Shown one piece after another: positions 8,015 to 23,757 of a DNA stretch of 64,000 bases. The notes beneath the pieces are model-generated. The model was not told the DNA's origin and did not search any database. It saw only the letters and a list, made by a program, of their open reading frames with translations. The stretch spans positions 1 to 64,000 of IMG/VR virus record IMGVR_UViG_3300008963_000002; one strand, written 5' to 3'. How positions within the stretch are numbered: position 1 is the first letter of the stretch; each line of letters opens with the position of its first letter. The DNA is from a virus. The translations under genes were made by a program, and so were the position numbers.

Positions 8015-8374
8015 ATGAATTCAGTAAATGACCGTAATCCACGAATTGATAACGCTGCAAGAGTACAAGATGCGTTTCGGGAATACTCTGTTAATGTAGA
8101 TGCTAATCAATATGACAGAGTCTTTAGTTTCTTTAAGAAAAGATTTCAAGCAGAAAAACCGGCAGCATCTTTTACAGCAGAATTGTTCAGAGTAGCAGAC
8201 ACCAATCAACGTTCTATTGATTCATTATTAGAAGAATTTGAAAAGAGTTCTGATGAACAAATACCAGTTCTTTTGGCTTTTTATTTAAACACTATCAGAA
8301 ATAAATCAACATATTTGGGCGTGTCCGCACAATTGGTGCCGCCAGTTGGAGTAGCACGTAACATCCGGGCATGA
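8015..8374 (+). CDS. Conserved structural-region protein, function unknown
   Basis: 119 residues, mostly alpha-helical by composition, with an aromatic/charged motif VFSFFKKRF near residue 42 and a hydrophobic C-terminal segment including LLAFYLN. I recall homologues beside gp4 in marine T4-like phages. No catalytic motif is visible. The stop overlaps the ATG of gp4 by 4 bases, and the gene sits between tail-tube and head-completion genes, so a minor virion or assembly role is likely. This is inference from position. Confidence 0.65.
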   Translation: MNSVNDRNPRIDNAARVQDAFREYSVNVDANQYDRVFSFFKKRFQAEKPAASFTAELFRVADTNQRSIDSLLEEFEKSSDEQIPVLLAFYLNTIRNKSTYLGVSAQLVPPVGVARNIRA

Positions 8375-8805
8375 CTAAGAAGTTTGCACAGGGAAAATAT
8401 CAAATTATTAACCCTGACAAATATGTTGGTAATCATACTCCACAGTATCGTTCATCGTGGGAACACGCATTTATGCGTTTCTGCGATACTAATGACAATA
8501 TTCTACAATGGGCAAGTGAAGCGATAGCAATACCATATAGAAATCCGCTGACTGGTAAAATGTCGCGATATGTTCCAGATTTTTTTGTTTCATACCAAGA
8601 TAAAAACGGCAACATAAAAGCCGAGATAATAGAAATCAAACCCAAAAAACAAAGTATGATGACAGAAAGAATGAGTACAAGAGATCGTGCTGCTGTTGCG
8701 GTTAACATGGCAAAGTGGGATCAGGCCACTCGATGGTGTAGAAAAAATGGTATGACCTTCCGCGTAGTAAATGAAGACCAAATTTTCCACCAAGGTAAAA
8801 GGTAG
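8371..8805 (+). CDS. gp4: Head completion protein (T4 gp4)
   Basis: 144 residues, close to T4 gp4 (150). Characteristic features are SSWEHAFMRFCD near residue 27, the IPYRNPLTGK..RYVPDFFV segment and the EIIEIKPKKQ strand. This is a PD-(D/E)xK-like arrangement (D69 region, then E and K) also seen in T4 gp4. The protein completes DNA-filled heads so they can join tails. It overlaps the upstream small gene. Confidence 0.88.
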   Translation: MTKKFAQGKYQIINPDKYVGNHTPQYRSSWEHAFMRFCDTNDNILQWASEAIAIPYRNPLTGKMSRYVPDFFVSYQDKNGNIKAEIIEIKPKKQSMMTERMSTRDRAAVAVNMAKWDQATRWCRKNGMTFRVVNEDQIFHQGKR

Positions 8806-9391: not shown

Positions 9392-9958
9392 ATGAAAACA
9401 TTTGTAGATTATCTTGCTGAAAGCAAACAAACTTTTCAGTATCGCATTAAGATTGCGGGTGAGTTAGACAAGGACAAAGTCGATGAGTTAGAAAAGCGTC
9501 TTGAACGCTATGACTTAGTTAAAATGTCCGAACCCAAGAAAACTCCTGTTATGAAATCACCAGCAGGGTTTCCTGAACTGAATAATGAAGAAGTTCATAT
9601 CATTGATGTTGAATTTTCTTACCCTGCTTCTTCACAGGAGGTTACTGAAATGTGGCGTGAAATGGGCGGCAATCCGAATCATTTCCGTATGATGACCCCT
9701 GATTATGACGATACTGTATCTGATGAATTTGAAAAGCGTGAAGAAAGTCCAGTTTTAGAAAAGGATTATCCAACGCCACCAGATGCAGAATATGATACCA
9801 CAGACGAAGTTATAAAAAACTCAGCAAGTGATGCCAAATTTGAAATTGCAGGTGGTAAAACTGACCCAGCACAAACTACTAACGATCTTGAGCAAGGCAC
9901 CGATAGTGCTATACCCGGAACTAATAAGAGACCGGAACCAAAGAGCTTTGCACGATAA
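9392..9958 (+). CDS. Putative internal head protein with capsid-targeting peptide
   Basis: 188 residues. The N-terminus MKTFVDYLAES closely resembles the peptide shared by T4 internal proteins IPI-III (MKTYQEFIAEA), which directs them into the prohead and is cut after Glu by gp21. The first 90 residues look folded, with KIAGELDKDKV and a VHIIDVEFSYPAS strand. The rest is acidic and Pro-rich, probably flexible. It sits between gp16 and gp17 in a late-transcribed block. Function inside the head is unknown; DNA condensation or injection with DNA are possibilities. Confidence 0.75.
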   Translation: MKTFVDYLAESKQTFQYRIKIAGELDKDKVDELEKRLERYDLVKMSEPKKTPVMKSPAGFPELNNEEVHIIDVEFSYPASSQEVTEMWREMGGNPNHFRMMTPDYDDTVSDEFEKREESPVLEKDYPTPPDAEYDTTDEVIKNSASDAKFEIAGGKTDPAQTTNDLEQGTDSAIPGTNKRPEPKSFAR

Positions 9959-9967
9959 GGACAAAGA

Positions 9968-12481
9968 ATGAATAAACAGGATTTCATAACAAAAAAGCCA
10001 ACACTAAAAGAAGATACTATTGACAGACTTCGCTACATTGTTGATAACAACGATGCAAGACGTGTGCAATTTGACAATGGCGAATCAATGACAGTGGATA
10101 TGTTTACTGCCAGTGCAATTGTGAATCTTCATAATGCAGTTAATGACCAAAATAAAGCCAAAATAGAAGATACTATTGGCAAAAGTAAAGAAATGTTTTA
10201 CAAAATTGCTGACTTTGCTTTTTCTAATCTAAAAGAAAATGCACAAAGTGGTCGTGGTGATGTGTTAATAAATGATGACACCGAAACTGTCAAGATGACA
10301 GAAAGTGCATATGGTGCTAAGCCAAAATCAAGCAGAATAACAATCAAAGACCAGCCATATATCCTTATCAACAAGCCGGGCATTGGCGAAACTGCATATA
10401 GTGTTAAATTTACCAAGAATAATCCTATCTTAGAACAAAAAGAATTTGAAGCGGGAACTCGTGTACACGCTGGTGTTGGAAAGAAAGGTGGTGCTGGTAT
10501 TTCTGGTGTTGTTATGAAAGAAGAGAACGGATATGTTTTCTTTAAAAGTGACGAGGGCAAAAACTACAAAGCACCAAAAGCAAAAGTAATGCCTGTTTCT
10601 GATATTAAATTCAATGAAGGCAAAGATGTTCCCAGCAAGCACCAAGAAAAAATTGCCAAAGATACGGTCAAAAATCCAGATAAAGCACTTTTAGGTGGGC
10701 CATCAGAGGAAGAAGCCGAAAAAATGTTAAAAAATAAATTTGGTTACACCGATGCTCAAATAACGAAATTAAAAAAGACAGCCAATGAAGGCAAACACAG
10801 TAAAAGTCAAGCACAACAAGCAGCCATCGCAATCTCAAAGAAAGAAAAGAAAGAGTCAATCAATGAAAAATCTGTTTCTAAAGACCAACAGCAAGCTGCT
10901 GGTGCTGCATTAGCAGCCAAAAGAGGTGAAACACCGGTTTCTGAATTACAAGGTGCTTCAAAAGAAATGTATGATTCTATGACAAAGAAAGAATTAGAAG
11001 ATTTTGCTGGCACCAAGCACGCAGGATTACCTGAAAAAGTTGATGAAGCTAAAGATTATAAAGCAGAAAAAAATAGCGAGGGCAGATATACAATATGGAC
11101 TGTTGGTGAAACAGGAAGTCGTCAAGATATGGTTAAAGATGGTTTGACAAAAGCCCAAGCCAAAAAAATGATTGACAAATTATATTCAAAGGATTTGGGT
11201 CTAATAGATGAAGATAGTCTTGATGAAAATGCATTCAATCAAGCCGCTGCTGAAGCTGCTAAAGCAGGTAAAAAAGAATTTGAATTTGATGGAAAAACCT
11301 ATCCTGTAAAAATGGATAAGAGTACTGCTGAAAAACTTGATGATGATTTAGATCCAGTAGATGCAAAGCAAGCTCGTATGCCATTTAAACGCCGTAAAGA
11401 CAAAGATATTAATAATGATGGAGAAGTAGATTCTACAGATGAGTATCTTCATGCTCGTAGAAATGCTATTCAAACTGACATAGCATCGCCATTGGATGAG
11501 CAAGATATGGATATGGACATGATGAACCAGCCCCCAATGATGGACAAGGCAATGCAAGATCCTGATGATTATGGACCACAGGCTGGATCAGAGATGGCAG
11601 AGACACAAATTCACTATTTGGTATATGCTATTAGTGAAATCAAAGAAGCCATGAGAGCGGGGTACCATATGCCAGACTGGTTGCAGAATAAAATAAGTTC
11701 TGCTCACCAAGATATGCAAGGCATTCATAGTTATATGGAAGGAAGCCGTCTCAAGCGTCAAATGTGCGGTCCAATCTCAGAGGGCTATGTTGGTTCTGAT
11801 TATGGACCTGAAGCTGCAAGTGGTATGGCAAGAACACAACTTTCCTTTATGAAATACGCAGCAGAAGATGTTCTTAAGTGTATTTCAGCCGGAACACCAA
11901 TTCCTGAGTGGTATCAGAATAAAATAGCAAAAGTACATCGTGCAATAGAAACCATTTATGCTTACATAGAAGGGACCCGTCGTGCCGAAGAAGATGACGT
12001 TCCTGATATGACAACAAACACCGAGATGAGCACCCCTGCAAGCCAACCACCAATGAGCACAGGTACTATGTTTGCTGGTGGTGAAGAGGATTATATGGCT
12101 GAAAATAGAAAAAAATCAAAAAAATATCCACCCAAACTAAATGAAAACAAGAAAAGTGATTGGGATGTTGACAAGCAAGTCAAAAGAACACAAGCCTCAC
12201 CACTTTTTAAAGCAACAGAGGGCGACAAAGATCCTGAAGAGATCAAGCAAGATCTTCTTCAAGATAGAGAAAAGTTTGAGAAAAAACTCAGTGATGCTAT
12301 TTTCTTGCCAGTAAATGATTCAGTTGTGGCATTACAGGATCTGTTCCGGGATTCGTCTGGAACTATAGCTGCATACTTAAGTGATAATGAGAAAAAATTT
12401 CTTAAAGAATTTCATAGAGAATTAAAAAAATTACATGATAAGTTTGAAGAATCAAGCATAATATCTTCGGATTATCTATAA
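9968..12481 (+). CDS. Large modular virion protein with DUF3008-like and EF-hand-like segments
   Basis: 837 residues, very rich in Lys, Glu, Asp and Ala. Residues about 12-85 are a domain (DRLRYIVDN...NAVNDQNKAKIEDTIG) also present in the next gene. Residues about 300-360 match the small DUF3008 pattern (KDQQQAAGAALAAKRGE, then GLPEKV). At about 477-490 DINNDGEVDSTDEYL is an EF-hand or dockerin-like calcium loop. Two copies of a roughly 50-residue helical unit follow (about 541-593 and 617-669; AETQIHYLVYA and ARTQLSFMKYA). No enzyme motif is seen. Its position suggests a scaffold, core or internal head protein of marine T4-like phages. Confidence 0.8.
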   Translation: MNKQDFITKKPTLKEDTIDRLRYIVDNNDARRVQFDNGESMTVDMFTASAIVNLHNAVNDQNKAKIEDTIGKSKEMFYKIADFAFSNLKENAQSGRGDVLINDDTETVKMTESAYGAKPKSSRITIKDQPYILINKPGIGETAYSVKFTKNNPILEQKEFEAGTRVHAGVGKKGGAGISGVVMKEENGYVFFKSDEGKNYKAPKAKVMPVSDIKFNEGKDVPSKHQEKIAKDTVKNPDKALLGGPSEEEAEKMLKNKFGYTDAQITKLKKTANEGKHSKSQAQQAAIAISKKEKKESINEKSVSKDQQQAAGAALAAKRGETPVSELQGASKEMYDSMTKKELEDFAGTKHAGLPEKVDEAKDYKAEKNSEGRYTIWTVGETGSRQDMVKDGLTKAQAKKMIDKLYSKDLGLIDEDSLDENAFNQAAAEAAKAGKKEFEFDGKTYPVKMDKSTAEKLDDDLDPVDAKQARMPFKRRKDKDINNDGEVDSTDEYLHARRNAIQTDIASPLDEQDMDMDMMNQPPMMDKAMQDPDDYGPQAGSEMAETQIHYLVYAISEIKEAMRAGYHMPDWLQNKISSAHQDMQGIHSYMEGSRLKRQMCGPISEGYVGSDYGPEAASGMARTQLSFMKYAAEDVLKCISAGTPIPEWYQNKIAKVHRAIETIYAYIEGTRRAEEDDVPDMTTNTEMSTPASQPPMSTGTMFAGGEEDYMAENRKKSKKYPPKLNENKKSDWDVDKQVKRTQASPLFKATEGDKDPEEIKQDLLQDREKFEKKLSDAIFLPVNDSVVALQDLFRDSSGTIAAYLSDNEKKFLKEFHRELKKLHDKFEESSIISSDYL

Positions 12482-12493
12482 AGAGCAAATATT

Positions 12494-15370
12494 ATGAGAA
12501 AGACATCTAAGAATTCTAAAACAATTAAAGAAAACACTATGTCATCTGATGAGTTGGGGTTAGGAGATGCCGTTCATATCAAGTCACAGAATAAAACTGG
12601 TATGTACTATGGTGAAGAAAATGGCAAAATCAAAGTTAAAACACCAAGCGGTATGGAACTTGCTAGTGAAGATGATATTGAAGTAATTCCAGATGATGAT
12701 GATTTCATGGAAGAAAGTTCTCTTAATACTATTATTGGTGATATTGAACAGCGTCTATTAGAAGACGATGAACTAAATGAAAATATGCTTAAGAAAGCAG
12801 CATTGGCTACTATGCTGGGCTTGGGAACTTATGCTGGTTTAGAAGCAACTAGTATGGATAACACACCACTGGGACAGGCCATGCAAGATGCTGCTCAGCA
12901 AGGTGACGAGTATGCCGAGCGAGAGTTAGACAAACTTGATCTATATATAGATGCTGGTGACACAAGAATGATAAGAAAGTTATCAAATAAGTATTTGGGA
13001 CCAGTAGAAGATAGAACAATGAATGAAGCAACCAGTCGTCAGTCAGACCTTGATCCAGAAAAGAAAGTTGTTGTCAAGGGCGTCAAAGGAATGAATAGTA
13101 AATCATTTACCAAAACATTCCGTAATATGAAGTCTGCTGAAAAGTGGATGGATGACAACGAAGGTGATGTTGAAATCAAACAAATTGAAAACGAGGATTC
13201 TGTTGCAGAAGCCAAACACAAGGATAGAACAATGAATGAAACCAAATTAACAGAAGGCATTATTGACCGTCTTCGTAATATCGTAGATGACAGACAAATG
13301 TCTCGTATTACATTTGATAATGGCGAGACTCTAGAAGTTGATATGCAAACTGCAAATGCGATAGTAAGTCTTTACAACGCAGTAAACGACAAAAACAAAG
13401 CCAAGATAGAAGATAATATTGGTAAAAAAGAAATGTTTCAAAAGTTTGCTGATTTTGCTTTCCAGCAATCTAACAATAACACGAATGAAGACGAGATAAC
13501 AGAAAAAGACGAAGACGATCCTTGCTGGGATGGCTATGAGCAATATGGCACAAAAATGCAAGACGGCGAAGAAGTTCCAAATTGTGTGCCAGTCAACGAG
13601 GGCAGTCTTACAGAAGAAGAAACCCTTTTGGCTGCTATGAAAGATAGTACAGTTGCAGAGAGTGCAGGTATGACACCAGAAGAAGCAAGAAATGCTTTAC
13701 GGAACACTTATGGCTATGATGATCTTGCTATTGCCCGGGCACAACTTGATGAAACCACTTCTGCTGGCAGTGTTGCTGCAGTGTCTGCCCCAGTTGGCGA
13801 TACTAAAAAGAGAAGTATATTTGGAGAAGAAGAAGCAGACAGCAAAGATTCAGAATTTGATTCTGCTTGGTTTTATAAGAGTGTGGATGGCGAGGTAGAA
13901 GGACCATACAAGTCAGAAAAAGAAGCAACAGATGCTGCAAACAACTACGCTGATTGGGTTAAGCAAGGCAGCGAACTTGAGGAAGGCGACCGTCGTTTAG
14001 CAAAACGTGCATTCTTAATGAAGTCCTCGGTGGCGGAATCCAAGACAGTAAGCGAACTTGAAAAGAAATTCCGCTCACAACTCAATGAAGCCAAAGTAAA
14101 AACTCCAGTAGATGCGGCTAAAAAACTCGAAAGAGCGAGTAAAAACTTTGGTGGTTCAGATAAAAGGGCCCTTAAAAAATATGCAGATATGTTGAAAAAG
14201 GATGGTTACAACGCAATACCCAGCATTGAAAAAGACAAACGCGGTAAAGACACAATTATAAGAGACGAAGTTGATTCTGTGTTTGCTGATCTGCAGGATT
14301 CTCTTCTTACACAAAATGAAGAACTCAATGAAGCAATGGATATTAATGTAAGCGTTGATCCAACACAACCAGAAAGCAGAAGCATTTCAGTAACCGCATC
14401 AGAACAAGAGGCAGACGAGTTGGCTGGATTGCTATCCAATGCAGGACTTTTCTCAAGTCCCGGTTATGGTGAGGTACAGTTCCAAGAACCAACAGATAAC
14501 CCAGATCTTATGCATACTCAAGCACATGATATGCCAATGGAAGAAGATAGTGATTACAGCAATAGCCCAGAAGAAAAATATCAGGATATGGAATATATGC
14601 TTGATGTTGTTTCTGGCGGTCTTAACCGTGAGAAAAATTCTTATGACAAGGCTGAAGATGGCGACAATCCAATGGATGTGGTTAAGGAAGAGTTCTCCAA
14701 GCTTCTGGACGAGAAAGCAAACGCCGATAAAGAGGAAGCCGTCGAAATTATATCTAAATCTATTTCGATGAAGCCCTCAGTTGTCAAAGCAGCCTTAAAA
14801 GATGGGGGTCTTGACCCTGTTGCAGTGGTTACTGCGTTAAAAGGTAGAAAGACCATCAAGGCAAAGCAGTTGTCCGATTTTGTCATGGGGCACTCTTTTG
14901 GTGGGTCTGTAGACAAAAAAGATCTGGCGTCCATCAAAAAAGCCAGTGACAAAGCATTCCGTTCTATGAAGGAAGAAGAAGATACTGCTGTAGGCACTAT
15001 GGATGAATTTTATTCTTATGTCTTAGATTTCTATGGCCCTAATGGCATCTATGACATTGGTGCAACAGAAGAAGAAGTCAAAAAAGCAACTGAACTTGTT
15101 AAAAACGAAGTTGGAGATGATTTTGAGGGAGATTCTGTTGATAGAGAAAAAGTTCGTGATGTCATTCTTGACCAAATGAGAAGCGAAGAAGAAAGAGAAG
15201 AAGCCGAGAAGGCATTTAGATCAAGTGAAGAAGTTGATTATGACAAGATTAATGACATGATGTCTGATGTTCCTGATCCAATTCAAACACGTGGTGATGT
15301 TGATGATATGGACAGAATGCGTAATTTTAATGAAACAGACGAAGTTAAGCGATTAGCAGGACTTGTTTAA
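12494..15370 (+). CDS. Giant acidic virion/head-core-like protein
   Basis: 958 residues, strongly acidic with many Glu/Asp-rich linkers. Residues about 250-330 repeat the domain found at the start of the preceding protein (LTEGIIDRLRNIVDD, NAVNDKNKAKIEDNIG). A CWDGYEQYGTK...EVPNCVP segment carries a Cys pair, and a helical segment (EARNALRNTYGYDDLAIA) echoes FGYTDAQI upstream. There are many LTE, LNE and INE tripeptides of the prohead-protease type. The C-terminus is DEVKRLAGLV, a motif that recurs in neighbouring genes. Likely a multi-domain core or internal head component. Confidence 0.75.
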   Translation: MRKTSKNSKTIKENTMSSDELGLGDAVHIKSQNKTGMYYGEENGKIKVKTPSGMELASEDDIEVIPDDDDFMEESSLNTIIGDIEQRLLEDDELNENMLKKAALATMLGLGTYAGLEATSMDNTPLGQAMQDAAQQGDEYAERELDKLDLYIDAGDTRMIRKLSNKYLGPVEDRTMNEATSRQSDLDPEKKVVVKGVKGMNSKSFTKTFRNMKSAEKWMDDNEGDVEIKQIENEDSVAEAKHKDRTMNETKLTEGIIDRLRNIVDDRQMSRITFDNGETLEVDMQTANAIVSLYNAVNDKNKAKIEDNIGKKEMFQKFADFAFQQSNNNTNEDEITEKDEDDPCWDGYEQYGTKMQDGEEVPNCVPVNEGSLTEEETLLAAMKDSTVAESAGMTPEEARNALRNTYGYDDLAIARAQLDETTSAGSVAAVSAPVGDTKKRSIFGEEEADSKDSEFDSAWFYKSVDGEVEGPYKSEKEATDAANNYADWVKQGSELEEGDRRLAKRAFLMKSSVAESKTVSELEKKFRSQLNEAKVKTPVDAAKKLERASKNFGGSDKRALKKYADMLKKDGYNAIPSIEKDKRGKDTIIRDEVDSVFADLQDSLLTQNEELNEAMDINVSVDPTQPESRSISVTASEQEADELAGLLSNAGLFSSPGYGEVQFQEPTDNPDLMHTQAHDMPMEEDSDYSNSPEEKYQDMEYMLDVVSGGLNREKNSYDKAEDGDNPMDVVKEEFSKLLDEKANADKEEAVEIISKSISMKPSVVKAALKDGGLDPVAVVTALKGRKTIKAKQLSDFVMGHSFGGSVDKKDLASIKKASDKAFRSMKEEEDTAVGTMDEFYSYVLDFYGPNGIYDIGATEEEVKKATELVKNEVGDDFEGDSVDREKVRDVILDQMRSEEEREEAEKAFRSSEEVDYDKINDMMSDVPDPIQTRGDVDDMDRMRNFNETDEVKRLAGLV

Positions 15371-16337: not shown

Positions 16338-16709
16338 TTGAGAGCCCGTGATTTTTTAAAAGAAAGTGGGTTTAACTATGGCCGTGCTACTCTAAAGCGT
16401 GGCGAAGCCCCACGTAATTTTAAAGATTCTACTGTAGGAACCATCCGTAATAATGGTTACTATGACCTTTACCGTGCGACATTAGCAATGGCTGGTCATC
16501 CTGACAATGAGCATGATGTTGATCCAGCCAGTTGGACTGGTGCTGATGGGTTTGTTCTTACATACACTCCCGAAGAACACGAAATGGCAAAAGCCGCGTT
16601 TAAAAAGATTGGATTAGAATACGAAGATGATGCACCCGGTCCCAGCCATGAATCCGATGCAATAAACAGCGAAAGTCCTGTAAAACCGTTTAAAGGATAT
16701 AAACGATGA
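16338..16709 (+). CDS. Putative internal head protein with targeting-like N-terminus (TTG start)
   Basis: 123 residues. The only plausible start is TTG directly after the upstream stop, giving MRARDFLKES, a capsid-targeting-like peptide ending in LKE. The rest is a small folded domain with YYDLYRATLAMAGH, EHDVDPASWTGADGFVLTYTPEE and an acidic, Pro-containing tail. No known enzyme motif. It overlaps the next gene by 4 bases, so translation is coupled. The TTG start should keep its expression low relative to its neighbours. Confidence 0.65.
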   Translation: MRARDFLKESGFNYGRATLKRGEAPRNFKDSTVGTIRNNGYYDLYRATLAMAGHPDNEHDVDPASWTGADGFVLTYTPEEHEMAKAAFKKIGLEYEDDAPGPSHESDAINSESPVKPFKGYKR

Positions 16710-18046
16710 CATCAGTGCCGCCTCCAGAAGATGTAAAACCATGGTATCTTCGTAATCTTACACAAGCACTTGCACTTAATAGTGACACGGGAAATGTATA
16801 TGTTCGCAGTCTAAGAGATGAAAGTGTTTTTACAAACTATAAAGGCAATGTTGCGGTAAGAGTAGATGATGACACGGTTCAGCATACTTCACGCAATCGT
16901 CGCAAAGTTTCCACAAACGAGCAAATTTTTTTCAACGCTTTTCAATACACCAAAGATGAACAGATTTGGGACGAAGCAGTCACAGGCACAGCATCATCAA
17001 CTTTTAACGAATATGAAGGTGGTGTGGTACTGGAAGTGGGTGGTGATGCAGGGGATGAAATTATACGCCAGACTAGAAATGTGATTCAGTATGTGCCGGG
17101 CAGGGCCAACGAAGCGATTTTTGCATTACGGTTGGATCCTTTTGAGACTGGCGTAAGAAAACGCTTTGGCATCTTTGATGAAACAAACGGTGTGTATTTT
17201 GAGAAAGGCGTGGATGACTATTATGTCGTGCTTCGCAAAGATACTCCTACAGGAATTGAAGAACAGCGTGTTCCTAGAGCAGAGTGGAATGTGGATCGGT
17301 TAGACGGAACTGGGCCATCTCTGGAATCATTCCAAGAAGACAAGATTCAAATGTTTACCATTGAGTATGAATGGTTTGGTGCTGGCGTAGTTGAATTCAA
17401 AATCATACTGGACAACAATGCACTTCCGCTTCATAGATTCGTGGCTGGTAATAACGACGAGATACCTTGGGCTAATTCGCCCTATAGACCTTTGAGGTTT
17501 GAATTGACAAATGTGGAAGGCGTTGCGGGAACCCACCAGATCCTACAGGGATCAAGTTCGGTATCATCAGAAGGCGAGGTTGGGCCGCTTGGTCGTGAGC
17601 AGAACGTGGCAACTCCGTTTGACGGAATTACAACCGGTAGTGCTGATGAGTTGAGGCCGGTACTATCAATTCGCCTTAGGTCCGATAGACTAAATGGTGT
17701 CGTTATACCCTTGGAGTTTCAGGCCGCGACTCTGGATAATACTGGTCTGTTCTACCGAGTAATCCGAGACACTACTCTGACTGGAGCAAGTTGGCAGAAC
17801 TCTTCCCCGGCAAGTTTTGCAGAGTTTGACTACTCGGCCACGGATTTTACTGGAGGAGATATACTTCAGACCGGATACATATCGCCAAATACTCAGGGAG
17901 AAATTCAAAAATTCCTCAAAGAAACTATCCTTCAGCTTGGGCGTAACAACATGGGAACGACACCGCAGACATTCACGATCCTTGCTGCTACAGTGTCATC
18001 AAACAAAGATGTTTTTGCTTCTCTGTCTTGGGTTGAAATAAGATAG
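16706..18046 (+). CDS. Virion structural protein (tail/fibre-associated type)
   Basis: 446 residues, mostly beta by composition. The N-terminus WYLRNLTQALALNSDTGNVYVR resembles a start that I recall in structural proteins of pelagiphage/cyanophage-like myoviruses ('NFTQALALD..TGNVY'). The middle has beta-sandwich-like strands (FGIFDETNGVYFE, FTIEYEWFGAGVVEFKI), resembling a lectin or concanavalin-like fold, and the C-terminus has FTILAATVSSNKDVFASLSW. It may be an adhesin or baseplate protein. GC content looks higher than in most neighbours. Confidence 0.65.
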   Translation: MTSVPPPEDVKPWYLRNLTQALALNSDTGNVYVRSLRDESVFTNYKGNVAVRVDDDTVQHTSRNRRKVSTNEQIFFNAFQYTKDEQIWDEAVTGTASSTFNEYEGGVVLEVGGDAGDEIIRQTRNVIQYVPGRANEAIFALRLDPFETGVRKRFGIFDETNGVYFEKGVDDYYVVLRKDTPTGIEEQRVPRAEWNVDRLDGTGPSLESFQEDKIQMFTIEYEWFGAGVVEFKIILDNNALPLHRFVAGNNDEIPWANSPYRPLRFELTNVEGVAGTHQILQGSSSVSSEGEVGPLGREQNVATPFDGITTGSADELRPVLSIRLRSDRLNGVVIPLEFQAATLDNTGLFYRVIRDTTLTGASWQNSSPASFAEFDYSATDFTGGDILQTGYISPNTQGEIQKFLKETILQLGRNNMGTTPQTFTILAATVSSNKDVFASLSWVEIR

Positions 18047-18697: not shown

Positions 18698-18928
18698 ATG
18701 GACTTAGAAGAATTAAAACGGTTAGCCGGTGTTAATAGTGGAGTATATGCAAATACTCCTGCTGGTGCTGCCCCTGAGGGTTCTAACATTAGCAAAACAG
18801 GCACAGAAAAGCGTGAAATAGAACGTGAAATGGGCCTCCGCCCCGGTGATCCAGAGTGGTTTGAACTGTGGTTCACCCGACCCTACCTAACTGACGCACT
18901 TCCTCCAAAATTTAGGGGTAGAAAATGA
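18698..18928 (+). CDS. Small protein with LKRLAG motif, unknown
   Basis: 76 residues. The N-terminus MDLEELKRLAGVN carries the LKRLAG motif also seen at the C-termini of the 958-residue protein (VKRLAGLV) and the protein after gp17 (LKRLLGIQK). The C-terminal half has PEWFELWFTRPYLT, aromatic and compact. Its TGA overlaps the ATG of the next gene. No function is known to me; the shared motif suggests binding to a common virion partner. Confidence 0.6.
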   Translation: MDLEELKRLAGVNSGVYANTPAGAAPEGSNISKTGTEKREIEREMGLRPGDPEWFELWFTRPYLTDALPPKFRGRK

Positions 18929-18999
18929 GATTTAGTGAGTTTTCCAAATTTACCATAAGACCACACTTGTTTGAAAACAAGCAGCAGTATAAGCAAATT
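18925..18999 (+). repeat. Direct repeat copy 1 (5' end of modular head protein A)
   Basis: About 75 bases from the ATG at 18925 match 20643-20717 with only a few single-base differences. This marks a recent tandem duplication or ongoing recombination between the two paralogues. Confidence 0.85.
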
Positions 19000-20643
19000 A
19001 TGGATACTATGGTTAATGCAGGTATTATTGACCAAGGTGCTGCTAATAGTGTTCTTGGCCAAGTAAAACAATCACTAAAACGAGCAGATCGTATCATCTG
19101 GTGGCTTCGCTGGTGGAGAATTACCACAGCACATCAAGTTATTGCACTTAAAATTGAGCAAGAAGAAAAAACTGCCGTTGGACCTGTTTCAGATGCAGAA
19201 AAACGCGAAAGCGAAGAAAAAATTCAAGAACTCAAAAGACTCTTTAAAAAAATAACTAAACGAGACTACGATACTATAGAGACAAGGTTAATTATTAGTT
19301 TTGAAAGACTATTTAATCTTCAGATTTTATTGACTCACTGGTCTACTATGTTTGAACAATCACCACAAGTCAATCAGGTTGAGTGGGAAGCAAATCTTGA
19401 ACCAATTGTTCTGCACGAAAAATTACAAGAAGCAGAAGAAGAGTGGGAACAAAAACAAGAACAAGAACTTGAGCCAGAACCCGACGACCAAATCATTATT
19501 GATTACGGCAAATACGCTTGGGTCAAATTAGACAGGGAATACTGTGATGCCGAGGGCAAGGCAATGGGCCATTGTGGAAATACCGGAACACCGCAGGAAG
19601 GCGACAGGATTCTAAGTTTCCGCACAAAAGTCAGCGATACAAGACAAAAGCCACATTTGACATTCATACTTGATAAAGATGGTTACCTAGGAGAGATGAA
19701 AGGACGTGGTAATGACAAACCCAGTGAAAAATATCATCCTTATATCATTGACTTGTTACAAAAAGATTTTGTAAAAGGCATCAAGGGTGGTGGGTATCTA
19801 CCCGAAAACAATTTTAGTTTATCTGATTTAGATGAAGAACAACGAAAAGCATTAATAGAACAAAAACCACAGTTAGGCACATCATATGATATTTTACAAG
19901 CAGATGGAAGCCCATCAGAAAGGTTTTATGAAAAATTGGAGGCTGAGTTAGACGCATATGATATGCCTCTTTCTGCTAAAAAAATTGATAAAAAAAATCA
20001 TTTAGTAATGTTAGATGCACCTGAAGGTTCTGCTGCTGATTTAGATATTATTAATAAAAATGTTGAAACCAATGCTATAGATGTAGCATCCAGATTAATG
20101 ACAGGGGATGCGAGTCTCGCAGAAGTATATGATTATCCCCGTGATTATATAAAAATGATTATGGATAATGTTGCTGATGATTTATTTCAATCACTGGATT
20201 CAGACTACAAATCTCAAATAGAAAAATTTGTCAAAGAAAATTATAGTGATGATGTAGATTGGGATGAGGATAGTTTAGAAGAAATAATTTCAAATGTTGA
20301 TGAATTAGAATCTGCATTTATGAGTGCCACAGTTACTGGGAAAGAGTTGGGCGATGAGACAGAAATTATATCTGATTTTGAAAGGTGGATGGACAGGAAT
20401 AATGTGCAATATACCCCAGATGAAACAGAATTTTCTTTTGCTTTACCATCTTCTGAAATTTCTGAATTTATTCACGACGCAATTAGAGCGGGAGCCGAAG
20501 ACGAAATGGCTGATTATATCGTTGAACAACTTGACATAGATAGTTTTGATGAACCATATGGCGGATGGGATGGCTTTGATACCGATGCAGCAAAAGAGCG
20601 GCTTCGTGACGAATTAGCCGACGAAGGCATTGTGGAAATATAA
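18925..20643 (+). CDS. Modular head-associated protein A: MGHCGN core with acidic C-terminal domain
   Basis: 572 residues. Residues 1-25 (MRFSEFSKFTIRPHLFE) are nearly identical to the next gene and resemble a capsid-targeting peptide. A WWLRWWR segment follows at 59-65, then a coiled-coil-like region to about 185. The core at 190-305 contains WVKLDREYC, MGHCGN (214-219), a LTFILDKDGYLGEMKGRGN strand pair and KGIKGGGYLPENNFS. The GxxMxHC pattern with a following beta hairpin recalls PcfJ-like proteins; that link is tentative. The last 250 residues are highly acidic and unique to this copy. The stop overlaps the start of its paralogue. Confidence 0.78.
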   Translation: MRFSEFSKFTIRPHLFENKQQYKQIMDTMVNAGIIDQGAANSVLGQVKQSLKRADRIIWWLRWWRITTAHQVIALKIEQEEKTAVGPVSDAEKRESEEKIQELKRLFKKITKRDYDTIETRLIISFERLFNLQILLTHWSTMFEQSPQVNQVEWEANLEPIVLHEKLQEAEEEWEQKQEQELEPEPDDQIIIDYGKYAWVKLDREYCDAEGKAMGHCGNTGTPQEGDRILSFRTKVSDTRQKPHLTFILDKDGYLGEMKGRGNDKPSEKYHPYIIDLLQKDFVKGIKGGGYLPENNFSLSDLDEEQRKALIEQKPQLGTSYDILQADGSPSERFYEKLEAELDAYDMPLSAKKIDKKNHLVMLDAPEGSAADLDIINKNVETNAIDVASRLMTGDASLAEVYDYPRDYIKMIMDNVADDLFQSLDSDYKSQIEKFVKENYSDDVDWDEDSLEEIISNVDELESAFMSATVTGKELGDETEIISDFERWMDRNNVQYTPDETEFSFALPSSEISEFIHDAIRAGAEDEMADYIVEQLDIDSFDEPYGGWDGFDTDAAKERLRDELADEGIVEI

Positions 20644-20717
20644 TGAGATTTAGTGAATTTTCCAAATTTACCATAAGACCACATCTGTTTGAAAACAAGC
20701 AGCAATATAAGCAGATT
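20643..20717 (+). repeat. Direct repeat copy 2 (5' end of modular head protein B)
   Basis: Near-identical partner of 18925-18999, starting at the same codon. Differences seen are scattered single-base transitions, mostly synonymous, for example GAG/GAA and CAG/CAA. Confidence 0.85.
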
Positions 20718-22190
20718 GTAGATTCGGTATTAAATTCTAATATAGCAAAAGGAATTATTTCTAAATCAGATTATGTACCTGATGGTGTTAGAAAAGATTT
20801 AAAGAGAGCGGATAGAATTACGTGGTGGCTTCGTTGGTGGAGAAAGTGGGCTCTTCAAGACGCAGTAAGAACTAAAACAGATAGAATTAAAGCCTCTGAT
20901 GATTTAACTCCAGAAGAACAAAATGACAAAATATTAGAGTTAGAAAAAGAATTTGAAAAAATTACTAAAACACCATTTAACATTGGTGTAGTCAATGATT
21001 CTTTGAGTCTTAAGGATTATTTCTCTCGTATTACAATGGACCATTGGAAGAGTATGTTTGAGCAATCTCCCCAAGTCAATGAGATAGAGTGGAAGGCAGA
21101 TATGACACCTATAGAACTCCACGCAAAACTACGAACAGCAGAAGAAGAGTGGAAAGAAAAACAAGAACAAGAACTTGAAATGGAGCCAGATGACCAAATC
21201 ATTATTGATTACGGCAAATATGCGTGGGTCAAATTAGACAGAGAATATTGTGAGTTGGAAGGCAGAGCAATGGGCCATTGTGGCAATACAGCAACACCCA
21301 AAGAAGGCGACCGTATATTAAGTTTCCGTACAAAGGTATCTGGAGAAAAACAACGCCCGCACCTTACATTCATACTTGATAAAAATGGATATCTTGGTGA
21401 AATGAAAGGCAGAGCTAACGAAAAACCCAGTGAGAAGTATCATCCTTACATTATTGACTTATTACAAAAAGATTTTGTTAAAGGTATAAAAGGTGGTGGC
21501 TATTTGCCAGAAAGTAATTTTTCTATCACTGACTTAGATCAAGAACAAATGAATGCATTAATTTCTAAAAAACCATCCCTAATGACACCTGAGGAAGCAT
21601 ACACATATGCTGTAGAAAAGGTTGGGGGCAGATGGCCAGAGGGTGAAGAAGTAATTGCACAGTCACCAAGATATGCTCTCTATTATGCTCAAGATTTTAT
21701 TAAAGAAAGATGGCCAGAGGGCGAAAGAGCAATTGAACAAAAACCAAATTACGCTTACATATATGCTCGCGACGTTATAGAAGGCAGATTTCCAGAAGCA
21801 GAGGATGCAATTCTACAAAAGGGGATATCGGGACCAATTGTCACTTACGCTAAAGATGTTATCGGCGGAAGATGGCCAGAAGCGGAAGATATTATCAAGC
21901 AAGATCCGGGGTATTCTTACATGTATGCCAACCGGGTCATTAATGACAGATGGCCAGAGGCAGAAGACATAATTAAAACAGAACCAGATGTGGCTTATTT
22001 GTATGCTAAAGATGTTGTTCAAGGAAGGTGGCCAGAAGGCGAGGAAGTGATTAAACAAGATCCGGATTCTGCTTATATGTATGCTAAAGATGTGATTAAA
22101 GGCCGATGGCCAGAGGCGGAAGATGTGATTAAACGTGATGAACCTCTTTGGGAATTATACAAAGGATTCGTAAAAAACAACGATGAGTAA
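20643..22190 (+). CDS. Modular head-associated protein B: MGHCGN core with 26-residue RWPEAE repeats
   Basis: 515 residues. Residues 1-25, the WWLRWWRKW segment (61-69) and the core at about 185-305 (MGHCGN at 210-215, GEMKGRAN, KGIKGGGYLPE) are paralogous to the preceding protein. The C-terminus differs completely: from residue 330 seven units begin with R-[WF]-P-E, spaced 26 residues apart (one gap of 28), each with a Y.YA.DVI helix. They probably form an alpha-solenoid binding surface. ATG overlaps the upstream stop, and the 3' end overlaps the terminase start by 8 bases, so it is tightly linked to gp17. Confidence 0.8.
   Translation: MRFSEFSKFTIRPHLFENKQQYKQIVDSVLNSNIAKGIISKSDYVPDGVRKDLKRADRITWWLRWWRKWALQDAVRTKTDRIKASDDLTPEEQNDKILELEKEFEKITKTPFNIGVVNDSLSLKDYFSRITMDHWKSMFEQSPQVNEIEWKADMTPIELHAKLRTAEEEWKEKQEQELEMEPDDQIIIDYGKYAWVKLDREYCELEGRAMGHCGNTATPKEGDRILSFRTKVSGEKQRPHLTFILDKNGYLGEMKGRANEKPSEKYHPYIIDLLQKDFVKGIKGGGYLPESNFSITDLDQEQMNALISKKPSLMTPEEAYTYAVEKVGGRWPEGEEVIAQSPRYALYYAQDFIKERWPEGERAIEQKPNYAYIYARDVIEGRFPEAEDAILQKGISGPIVTYAKDVIGGRWPEAEDIIKQDPGYSYMYANRVINDRWPEAEDIIKTEPDVAYLYAKDVVQGRWPEGEEVIKQDPDSAYMYAKDVIKGRWPEAEDVIKRDEPLWELYKGFVKNNDE
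21630..22142 (+). repeat. In-frame 78-bp repeats encoding RWPEAE units
   Basis: Arg codons starting each unit fall at residues 330, 356, 382, 410, 436, 462 and 488 of the protein, a 78-base period with one 84-base interval. Copies are diverged at DNA level but keep the amino-acid pattern, showing selection on the protein. Confidence 0.9.
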
Positions 22191-23757
22191 AACAATGGAA
22201 GGGGTTCTAATAAAGAACCCACATAAACAAGAAAGTTATTCAGAAGAACAGTTAATAGAGTTTGCCGCGTGTGCTGACCCCAATACTGGACCACAATATT
22301 TTCTTAAGAATTTCTTTTACATTCAGCATCCCACCAAGGGAAGAATGTTGTATGCCCCATTTGAGTTCCAAACCCGTTTGATTGATACCTATCATAATTA
22401 CAGATTTTCTATATCAATGCTCCCCAGACAATGTGGCAAAAGCACATGTGCTGCGGGTTATCTACTATGGTATGCAATGTTTGTCCCAGACTCAACAATA
22501 TTAGTTGCAGCACACAAATATTTGGGTGCTCAGGAAATAATGCAACGCGTTCGTTATGCTTATGAATTGTGTCCAGATCATATTAGAGCAGGTGCAACAA
22601 GTTATAACAAAGGCAGTATAGAGTTTGATAATGGTAGCCGAATAGTATCACAAACAACAACTGAAAATACCGGTCGTGGTATGAGTATAACACTATTGTA
22701 TTCTGACGAATTTGCATATGTCAGGCCAACTATTGCCAGAGAGTTCTGGACTTCTATATCACCAACACTCTCAACTGGTGGTAAAGCAATTATTACTTCA
22801 ACACCAAACTCAGATGAAGATCAGTTTGCTTACCTATGGAAAGGTGCTAACAAAACAGAAGATGAGTTTGGCAATAAAACAGAATTAGGCATAAATGGGT
22901 TTAAAGCATTCCGAGCATACTGGCAAGAACATCCTGATAGAGATGAAAAATGGGCGGCTGAACAACGTGCTGCACTGGGTGACGATAGGTTTGAGCGAGA
23001 ACATGAATGTTCTTTTTTGATTCAGGATGAAACACTTATTGCCCCCGCCAAGTTAATTGATTTAGAACCATCAGAACCACTATACAAAACTGGTGAAGTT
23101 CGTTGGTATCATCGCCCTAAAAAGGGTAATATATATGTAGTAGGATTAGACCCAAGTTTGGGTACAGGTGGTGATTTTTCTGCAATCCAAGTTTTTGAGG
23201 CAAATACCTCAACACAAGTTGCAGAGTGGAAAAACAATCGTACTGACATTCCTGAACAAATAAGAATTCTTGCTGATATATGCAAACATATTAATGAAAC
23301 GGTTAATGACGTCAATAGTATCTACTATTCTGTTGAGAATAATACCATTGGTGAAGCATCACTTATTTCTATTGCTGATTATGGCGAAGAGAATATACAA
23401 GGATATTTTCTAAGTGATAGCAAACAACCAAGCGGTAGTGGTGGTGGAAGAAGACTGAGAAAAGGATTTAACACCAGTAATAAACCAAAATTAGCAGCGT
23501 GTTCTAAATTAAAAACAATGCTTGAAGCAGAGAAAATGCAGATTTTTAGTCGGTCATTGATGAGTGAATTAAAAACATTTGTTGCACGTGGTGCAAGTTA
23601 TGCAGCAAAGCCGGGAGAGACTGATGACCTTGTAATGGCAACCGTATTGGTAGTCAGAATGTTACAACAATTACAGAACTACCACGTTGAATTAACCAGC
23701 CAAATGAGTGACCACGGTGAGCGGCGTGACCCAATGCCATTCATTGCAATGTTCTAA
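22183..23757 (+). CDS. gp17: Terminase large subunit (T4 gp17)
   Basis: 524 residues. ATPase domain: Walker A PRQCGKST at 81-88, Walker B TLLYSDE at 171-177, and a coupling motif TSTPNS near 207. Nuclease domain: VVGLDPSLGTGGD with D324, then E386 in SVENN and the D482/D483 pair in GETDDLVMA, the expected RNase H-like acidic set. It is the ATP-driven DNA packaging motor and headful nuclease at the portal. It overlaps the preceding repeat protein. A Cys replaces the usual Leu or Met in the Walker A loop, unlikely to matter. Confidence 0.95.
   Translation: MSKTMEGVLIKNPHKQESYSEEQLIEFAACADPNTGPQYFLKNFFYIQHPTKGRMLYAPFEFQTRLIDTYHNYRFSISMLPRQCGKSTCAAGYLLWYAMFVPDSTILVAAHKYLGAQEIMQRVRYAYELCPDHIRAGATSYNKGSIEFDNGSRIVSQTTTENTGRGMSITLLYSDEFAYVRPTIAREFWTSISPTLSTGGKAIITSTPNSDEDQFAYLWKGANKTEDEFGNKTELGINGFKAFRAYWQEHPDRDEKWAAEQRAALGDDRFEREHECSFLIQDETLIAPAKLIDLEPSEPLYKTGEVRWYHRPKKGNIYVVGLDPSLGTGGDFSAIQVFEANTSTQVAEWKNNRTDIPEQIRILADICKHINETVNDVNSIYYSVENNTIGEASLISIADYGEENIQGYFLSDSKQPSGSGGGRRLRKGFNTSNKPKLAACSKLKTMLEAEKMQIFSRSLMSELKTFVARGASYAAKPGETDDLVMATVLVVRMLQQLQNYHVELTSQMSDHGERRDPMPFIAMF

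Follow-up and report, generated by a model that had tools for sequence, protein, structure and literature searches.

Two adjacent paralogues in a marine phage

The DNA analyzed here (the window) covers positions 1 to 64,000 of the viral record IMGVR_UViG_3300008963_000002, a 65.8-kb fragment (65,824 bases) of a large marine phage. Two adjacent open reading frames (ORFs) on its plus strand, P0001 (18925–20643, 572 amino acids) and P0002 (20643–22190, 515 amino acids), encode paralogues made of a short N-terminal tag, a helical domain, a core with the motif MGHCGN and a C-terminal tail; their coordinates in a preliminary description of the locus were verified. Comparison with relatives suggests that the tag addresses both proteins to the phage head and that the core belongs, distantly, with PcfJ.

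Similarity between the two proteins is confined to certain modules. Residues 1–25 are identical at all 25 positions (93% at the DNA level), the segment containing WWLRWWR (residues 51–65) agrees at 14 of 15 positions, and the core, including MGHCGN, is identical at 106 of 124 (residues 187–310, 85.5%), bearing out the preliminary description on all three shared parts. The segments linking them are 25–30% identical, except for residues 141–186 adjoining the core (70%), and the tails, at 26% identity, are unrelated. Identical residues use the same codon at 20 of 25 N-terminal positions and at 65 of 106 core positions (Fisher p = 0.10), a difference that gives no significant indication of recent copying of the N-terminus at the DNA level.

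In P0001, the predicted capsid-targeting propeptide (residues 1–17, 18925–18975) ends at a predicted cleavage site, LFE/N, and is followed by a helical domain carrying WWLRWWR (residues 18–182, 18976–19470), delimited by an alignment of N-terminal modules (A3) and by helices at residues 18–177 predicted by AlphaFold2 with a high predicted local distance difference test (pLDDT) score. The PcfJ-related core (residues 183–322, 19471–19890, MGHCGN at 19564–19581) then leads into an acidic C-terminal domain (19891–20640) of 249 residues, 27% of them Asp or Glu. P0002 has a matching predicted propeptide (residues 1–17, 20643–20693), a helical W-rich domain (20694–21176; alignments A1 and A3), a core (21177–21596, MGHCGN at 21270–21287) and a tail of 26-residue units (21585–22187), visible in the DNA as a direct-repeat family (D1) with 78-nucleotide spacing. 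The acidic and repetitive tails of the preliminary description are therefore both present; the solenoid shape it gave to the repeats is probable from their periodicity. Pfam and PDB sequence searches with P0001, P0002 and the core yielded no match.

A family carried by large phages

Searching viral contigs with a six-row core alignment (A2) returned 118 pattern-matching stretches, 100 of them coding for relatives; we retained the 80 best, which represent 78 distinct loci (given L-numbers below). Their core consensus is W..L..C..Eg.AMGHCGN...ilSlR...TF...GEMKG..N.KP. Many of the loci lie on contigs of 200–560 kb, and the 37 contigs that we searched again carry one to four core copies each. Among bacterial and archaeal genome contigs, just 2 of 224 candidate stretches were relatives. 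Salicola phage SCTP-2 was the sole phage isolate matched (E = 1e-5 in one search and 0.01 in another), the five further isolate matches all having E of 3–7.

Copy number and architecture vary. On the L025 contig, a single ORF of 1822 amino acids contains three tandem MGHCGN cores, with a fourth copy upstream. At L061, a truncated second copy (11188–11679) with the same tag lies right behind the full copy, another tandem duplication. Tails and fusions other than those of P0001 and P0002 include leucine-rich-variant-type (LRV) and HEAT repeats, NUDIX and GNAT. Fusion partners of the core in L040, L042, L052, L064 and L078 are ART-PolyVal, deoxyribosyltransferase, RNA-ligase, NUDIX and GNAT domains; the first three of these proteins are about 3000 amino acids long and combine the core with ART-PolyVal and further domains of effector type, and domains found in relatives of this size are ART-PolyVal, Nuc_deoxyri_tr2, 2'-5' RNA ligase and GNAT. 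In L037, a head maturation protease (phrog_1028, E = 1.7e-10) precedes the core, which is followed by HEAT repeats; L038 and L039 have the same protein length, ends and fusion layout.

In a 72-row core tree, with bootstrap values that the tool gives as rough, P0002 pairs with L011, P0001 joins next and L009 after it (supports 100/96, 100/82 and 100/95). Since the acidic tail is found in both P0001 and L009, and P0002 and L011 share repeats of the 26-residue type, the repeat tail is the derived state. The preliminary description read the swapped C-termini as the design of polymorphic toxin-like effectors, in which a conserved delivery part carries a hypervariable toxic end. The tails of P0001 and P0002 do differ, and the family has several tail types, but the acidic tail of P0001 recurs in 31 of the 74 members with a tail longer than 60 residues (the other 43 did not match), even in the giant L040. 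Being a family-wide module, it weighs against the toxin explanation, which we regard as very unlikely: Pfam scans of P0001 and P0002 revealed no toxin domain, repeats are an interaction-type module, and no immunity gene was identified, although no systematic search for one was made.

The N-terminal tag matches the specificity of a prohead protease

The N-terminal modules of 46 members were aligned (A3), omitting near-duplicates, members lacking a usable start (L059, L062, L065, L075 and L087) and large or multi-core members. Apart from the start, Glu17 is the only invariant residue ahead of the folded part. The residue two before it (P3) is L in 36 members, I in 7 and F in 3, and the residue after it (P1') is N, A, G or S in 39 (11, 10, 10 and 8, respectively). 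The strict motif [LI]xE[ANSGQKD] occurs within residues 6–34 of 42 of the 46, compared with 5, 4 and 2 in three later segments; the preliminary description had made its reading depend on such conservation among homologues. Among the 65 distinct members that have a 5' end, L/I-x-E followed by N, A, G or S lies within residues 6–34 of 45, including 41 of 48 stand-alone members. In the first 200 kb of SCTP-2, the motif stands at 10 of 31 M[KR] starts versus 4 of 143 internal M[KR] positions. The ten include gp31, the family protein of this cultured phage, whose predicted site, LFE/S, lies after residue 8.

The T4 prohead protease gp21 cleaves after L/I-X-E (PMC9026906), and at the sequence level the family tag matches this recognition motif. 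P0001 and P0002 both carry LFE/N. An AlphaFold model based on 46 sequences (mean pLDDT 90.3) gives residues 1–16 a pLDDT below 50 and starts the first long helix at residue 18.

Unrelated neighbours share the tag of their own locus

An N-terminal address would be expected to recur on unrelated proteins within a phage. We scored each family start for similarity to those of BLAST-dissimilar neighbours, taken from its own locus and from other loci (53 loci, 5000 permutations). Neighbours were excluded when they matched any member of the family with BLAST E <1e-3. Also excluded were loci with an open 5' end, 8 duplicates or near-duplicates, the giants L040, L042, L045 and L052, and L059, L086 and L087; for L033 and L034, the family start was shifted to an internal Met. 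Same-locus scores totaled 1260, against 1046 ± 28 for permuted loci (z = 7.7; none of 5000 permutations as high). The excess was lost when later residues replaced either side (z = 0.25, 0.11 and −0.12). With residues 41–64 on both sides, z was 1.78, which hints that a few of the neighbours are relatives that escaped detection.

The resemblance can be seen directly in single loci. The family protein of L053 starts MRSKDQIILEE and its neighbours MKSKDQIKLES and MRDKDTIILES; at L043 the family start is MNFYEFYQLLNEN and a neighbour's is MNFYQLYNLINEN; an unrelated neighbour at L012 starts MRFSEFSNINEN. A looser comparison agrees: the motif is present in 41 of 233 neighbours whose first residues are M[KR] (or V/L with K/R) versus 34 of 750 internal M[KR] positions, a count that takes in one window-type family copy (L008) and a truncated relative (L061) and includes L053/L054 twice. 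These observations, together with the invariant Glu and the fit to gp21, strengthen the capsid-targeting-like start of the preliminary description.

At L053/L054, L046, L018, L041 and L061, successive genes carry short, nearly identical N-terminal tags on different bodies; these runs are candidate head-cargo islands. Some tagged neighbours have YHGT-type starts (L012, L018, L046 and SCTP-2), which by eye had suggested ADP-ribosyltransferases; we dropped this idea, as neither Pfam (four of the five proteins, excluding that of SCTP-2) nor PHROGs (all five) supported it. Of the three searched against the PDB (all but L012 and L018 16963–17862), the L046 protein weakly matched an RNA 2'-phosphotransferase (E = 0.075), and neither L018 18250–18729 nor the SCTP-2 protein had a relevant match.

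Prohead protease and capsid genes of the carrier contigs

Of the 37 carrier contigs, 17 encode a gp21-type protease (Peptidase_S77) and 18 a gp23-type capsid protein; many of the others are fragments, and SCTP-2 has both genes. At L067 (contig G030), the core gene is followed by S77 protease and gp23-type capsid genes in succession. Of 15 distinct capsid proteins from these contigs, 13 have L/I-x-E 10–45 residues ahead of the conserved part.

Sharing of an N-terminus reveals a tag and not where it leads, so that the motif might instead be another sorting signal, such as one directing proteins to a compartment made by the phage, or a common leader that is not cut by a protease. The exact L/I-x-E match, its recurrence ahead of the mature part of the capsid proteins and the presence of the S77 protease make this quite improbable. 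A further point comes from a 188-residue protein in the window (9392–9958, plus strand) with a start like those of T4 internal proteins, MKTFVDYLAES, which matches a virion structural family (phrog_14802, E = 4.8e-6); it also matches the internal head protein family phrog_2667 weakly (E = 0.0088) and in exactly its first 39 residues.

The core is a distant relative of PcfJ

The preliminary description had been reminded of PcfJ-like proteins by the core. Aligned by hhalign, 77 family cores and 19 PcfJ proteins gave a probability of 90.9 (P = 1.1e-6) and a score of 51.3, compared with a top score of 18.6 among 30 column-shuffled controls; the test omitted L087, L118 and L119, and some PcfJ rows lack the HC motif. 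A bridging protein from Aureimonas (L087) matches both Pfam PcfJ (E = 1.6e-7) and the family core, and in a Foldseek search of the viral structure library BFVD, ranks 2, 4, 5, 7 and 8 are named PcfJ-like. The resemblance is thus real at the profile level; it is also distant, as neither P0001 and P0002 nor any of the six cores of A2 match PF14284 at the Pfam gathering score. Both families share the motif order E..AM.HC, S.R, T, (Q/E)..G..N; unlike PcfJ, the phage family adds GN after HC, KP..YHPYI..LL, GGGY..NNF, and the tag with its helical domain.

Residues 179–572 of P0001 were modeled by AlphaFold2 with a mean pLDDT of 87.7. Against the PDB, Foldseek found no match at E = 0.001 for either of the two models, the non-significant rows 1, 2 and 4 for the second being MYST acetyltransferases (E = 0.2–0.3, probability 0.69–0.89). 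In a VIA comparison with the second model, all 50 rows were GNAT, MYST, HAT1 or ESCO (Z = 5.4–7.1). A strand-loop-helix carrying EMKGRGN...YHPYI may, judging from the modeled secondary structure, occupy the place where GNAT enzymes bind coenzyme A (CoA). We take these models as a weak lead that the MGHCGN core may be GNAT/MYST-like. The literature that we searched contained no description of the family or of such a fold for PcfJ.

A proposed model of tagged head cargo

We propose, as the reading that fits the data best, that the first 17 residues would act as a T4-type capsid-targeting sequence, docking the protein in the prohead core, where a gp21-type prohead protease would cleave after Glu17 (LFE/N) and leave the trimmed protein in the head with the DNA. 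From there it would be ejected into the next host, where the PcfJ-related core, which may be a GNAT/MYST-like transferase whose site contains Cys/His, would act on a host or DNA-associated target, and the acidic domain or repeats would select the partner or target. For P0001 and P0002, we put the probability of capsid targeting, cleavage after Glu17 and retention in the head, taken jointly, at about 0.68. Their ejection into the next host we would call an even bet, acyltransferase-like chemistry of the core is a doubtful suggestion, and any particular target is speculative.

Several observations weigh against this model. The tag alone is no proof of ejection, because T4-like proteases also cut structural proteins, and large or fused family members mostly lack it (a site in 4 of 17). 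Neither S77 nor gp23 was found on the 65.8-kb contig of the window, and the association of tag and S77 across contigs, although in the expected direction, is not significant (15/1 vs 14/5 in 35 contigs, p = 0.19; 14/1 vs 6/4 in contigs of at least 100 kb, p = 0.12). As for the enzyme, the best Z of 7.1 is below significance and below the caution line of the tool (8), and the best Foldseek E is 0.2. Classical GNAT enzymes have the acetyl-CoA loop motif Q/RxxGxG/A, which is not strictly present in the core, and the core motif MGHCGN does not resemble them.

The tag and protease logic would fit equally well if these were structural or scaffold-core proteins, trimmed like the cargo but working in head assembly or DNA compaction and not in the next host. 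Their late structural gene setting and the fusion of core and head maturation protease in L037 are in keeping with such a role, and gp21 also cleaves T4 scaffold and capsid proteins (PMC9026906). On the other hand, patchy presence, one to four copies per contig, swapped tails and the effector-type fusions of L040, L042, L052, L064 and L078 look like cargo, and we judge a purely structural role unlikely.

The tag logic itself is known from T4, in which IPI–IPIII and Alt, like the present family, have a short N-terminal propeptide ending in L/I-x-E that is common to otherwise unrelated proteins. Some of the carrier contigs also have gp21/gp23-type head genes, as T4 does. The family differs in that no similarity to these proteins was found past the tag, its core is PcfJ-related and its tags vary from genome to genome. 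The ejection proteins gp53 and gp54 of SPN3US/phiKZ are likewise paralogues with identical N-terminal residues, cut by a prohead protease after Glu (PMC5694885, PMC10052503), but they are other proteins and their protease recognizes A-x-E or S-x-E. Likeness to the polyvalent proteins of phages and conjugative elements (Iyer et al., 2017; PMC5512222) is limited to the relatives of about 3000 residues, L040, L042 and L052; P0001 and P0002 are small and tagged, with a single core and tail and no Pfam effector domain. The word 'PcfJ' does not occur in that paper, and genome-specific tag sharing around a PcfJ-related family was not found in the literature searched.

More broadly, each large phage of the gp21/gp23 type may stock its head with an arsenal of unrelated proteins by way of an N-terminal tag of its own, with the PcfJ-related MGHCGN domain as a recurring cargo enzyme of GNAT/MYST-like fold, a generalization that we offer tentatively and hold at somewhat under even odds. 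Since most giant phages are uncultured, their cargo besides DNA is largely unknown, and a genome-specific tag that can be detected in sequence and is linked to the motif of a known protease opens this question to testing. If the model is true, reading the tag alone would list the injected proteins of a phage. The PcfJ superfamily, mainly known as an uncharacterized conjugation and phage protein, would gain a likely route of delivery and a first hypothesis on its fold.

Gene neighborhood and minor observations

P0001 and P0002 sit in a late structural module, since they share their strand with genes for a tail sheath (2731), tail tubes (6066 and 6686), head closure (8371–8805; phrog_218, E = 6.3e-44), a virion structural protein (16706–18046; phrog_1645, E = 4.8e-111) and the terminase large subunit (22183–23757; phrog_36964, E = 3.5e-109). 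The end of P0002 overlaps the start of the terminase gene, in line with the preliminary description, which placed the pair beside the packaging motor gene. This placement is not general: a terminase ORF is near the family gene in 6 of 74 loci examined, the window included, and is absent near L003 and L004, the closest single-copy relatives, so that a rule of constant adjacency was rejected. Rfam and tRNA searches gave no result.

Directly 5' of P0001, a 76-residue ORF (18698–18928, plus strand) starts MDLEELKRLAGV and has a homologue within the tagged-gene island of L012. The motif LxxLAG[IL/V] occurs at the N- or C-termini of several late proteins, namely this ORF, the C-terminus of the window protein 12494–15370, and proteins at L021 and L030, and the L012 homologue of this ORF carries it too; there are 6 terminal occurrences versus about 1.8 expected from interiors (1391 ORFs). 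The adjacent large window proteins 9968–12481 and 12494–15370 have in common a segment like (I)IDRLR.IVD and contain many L/I-x-E and MNE-type sites, and are possibly core proteins cut at multiple sites.

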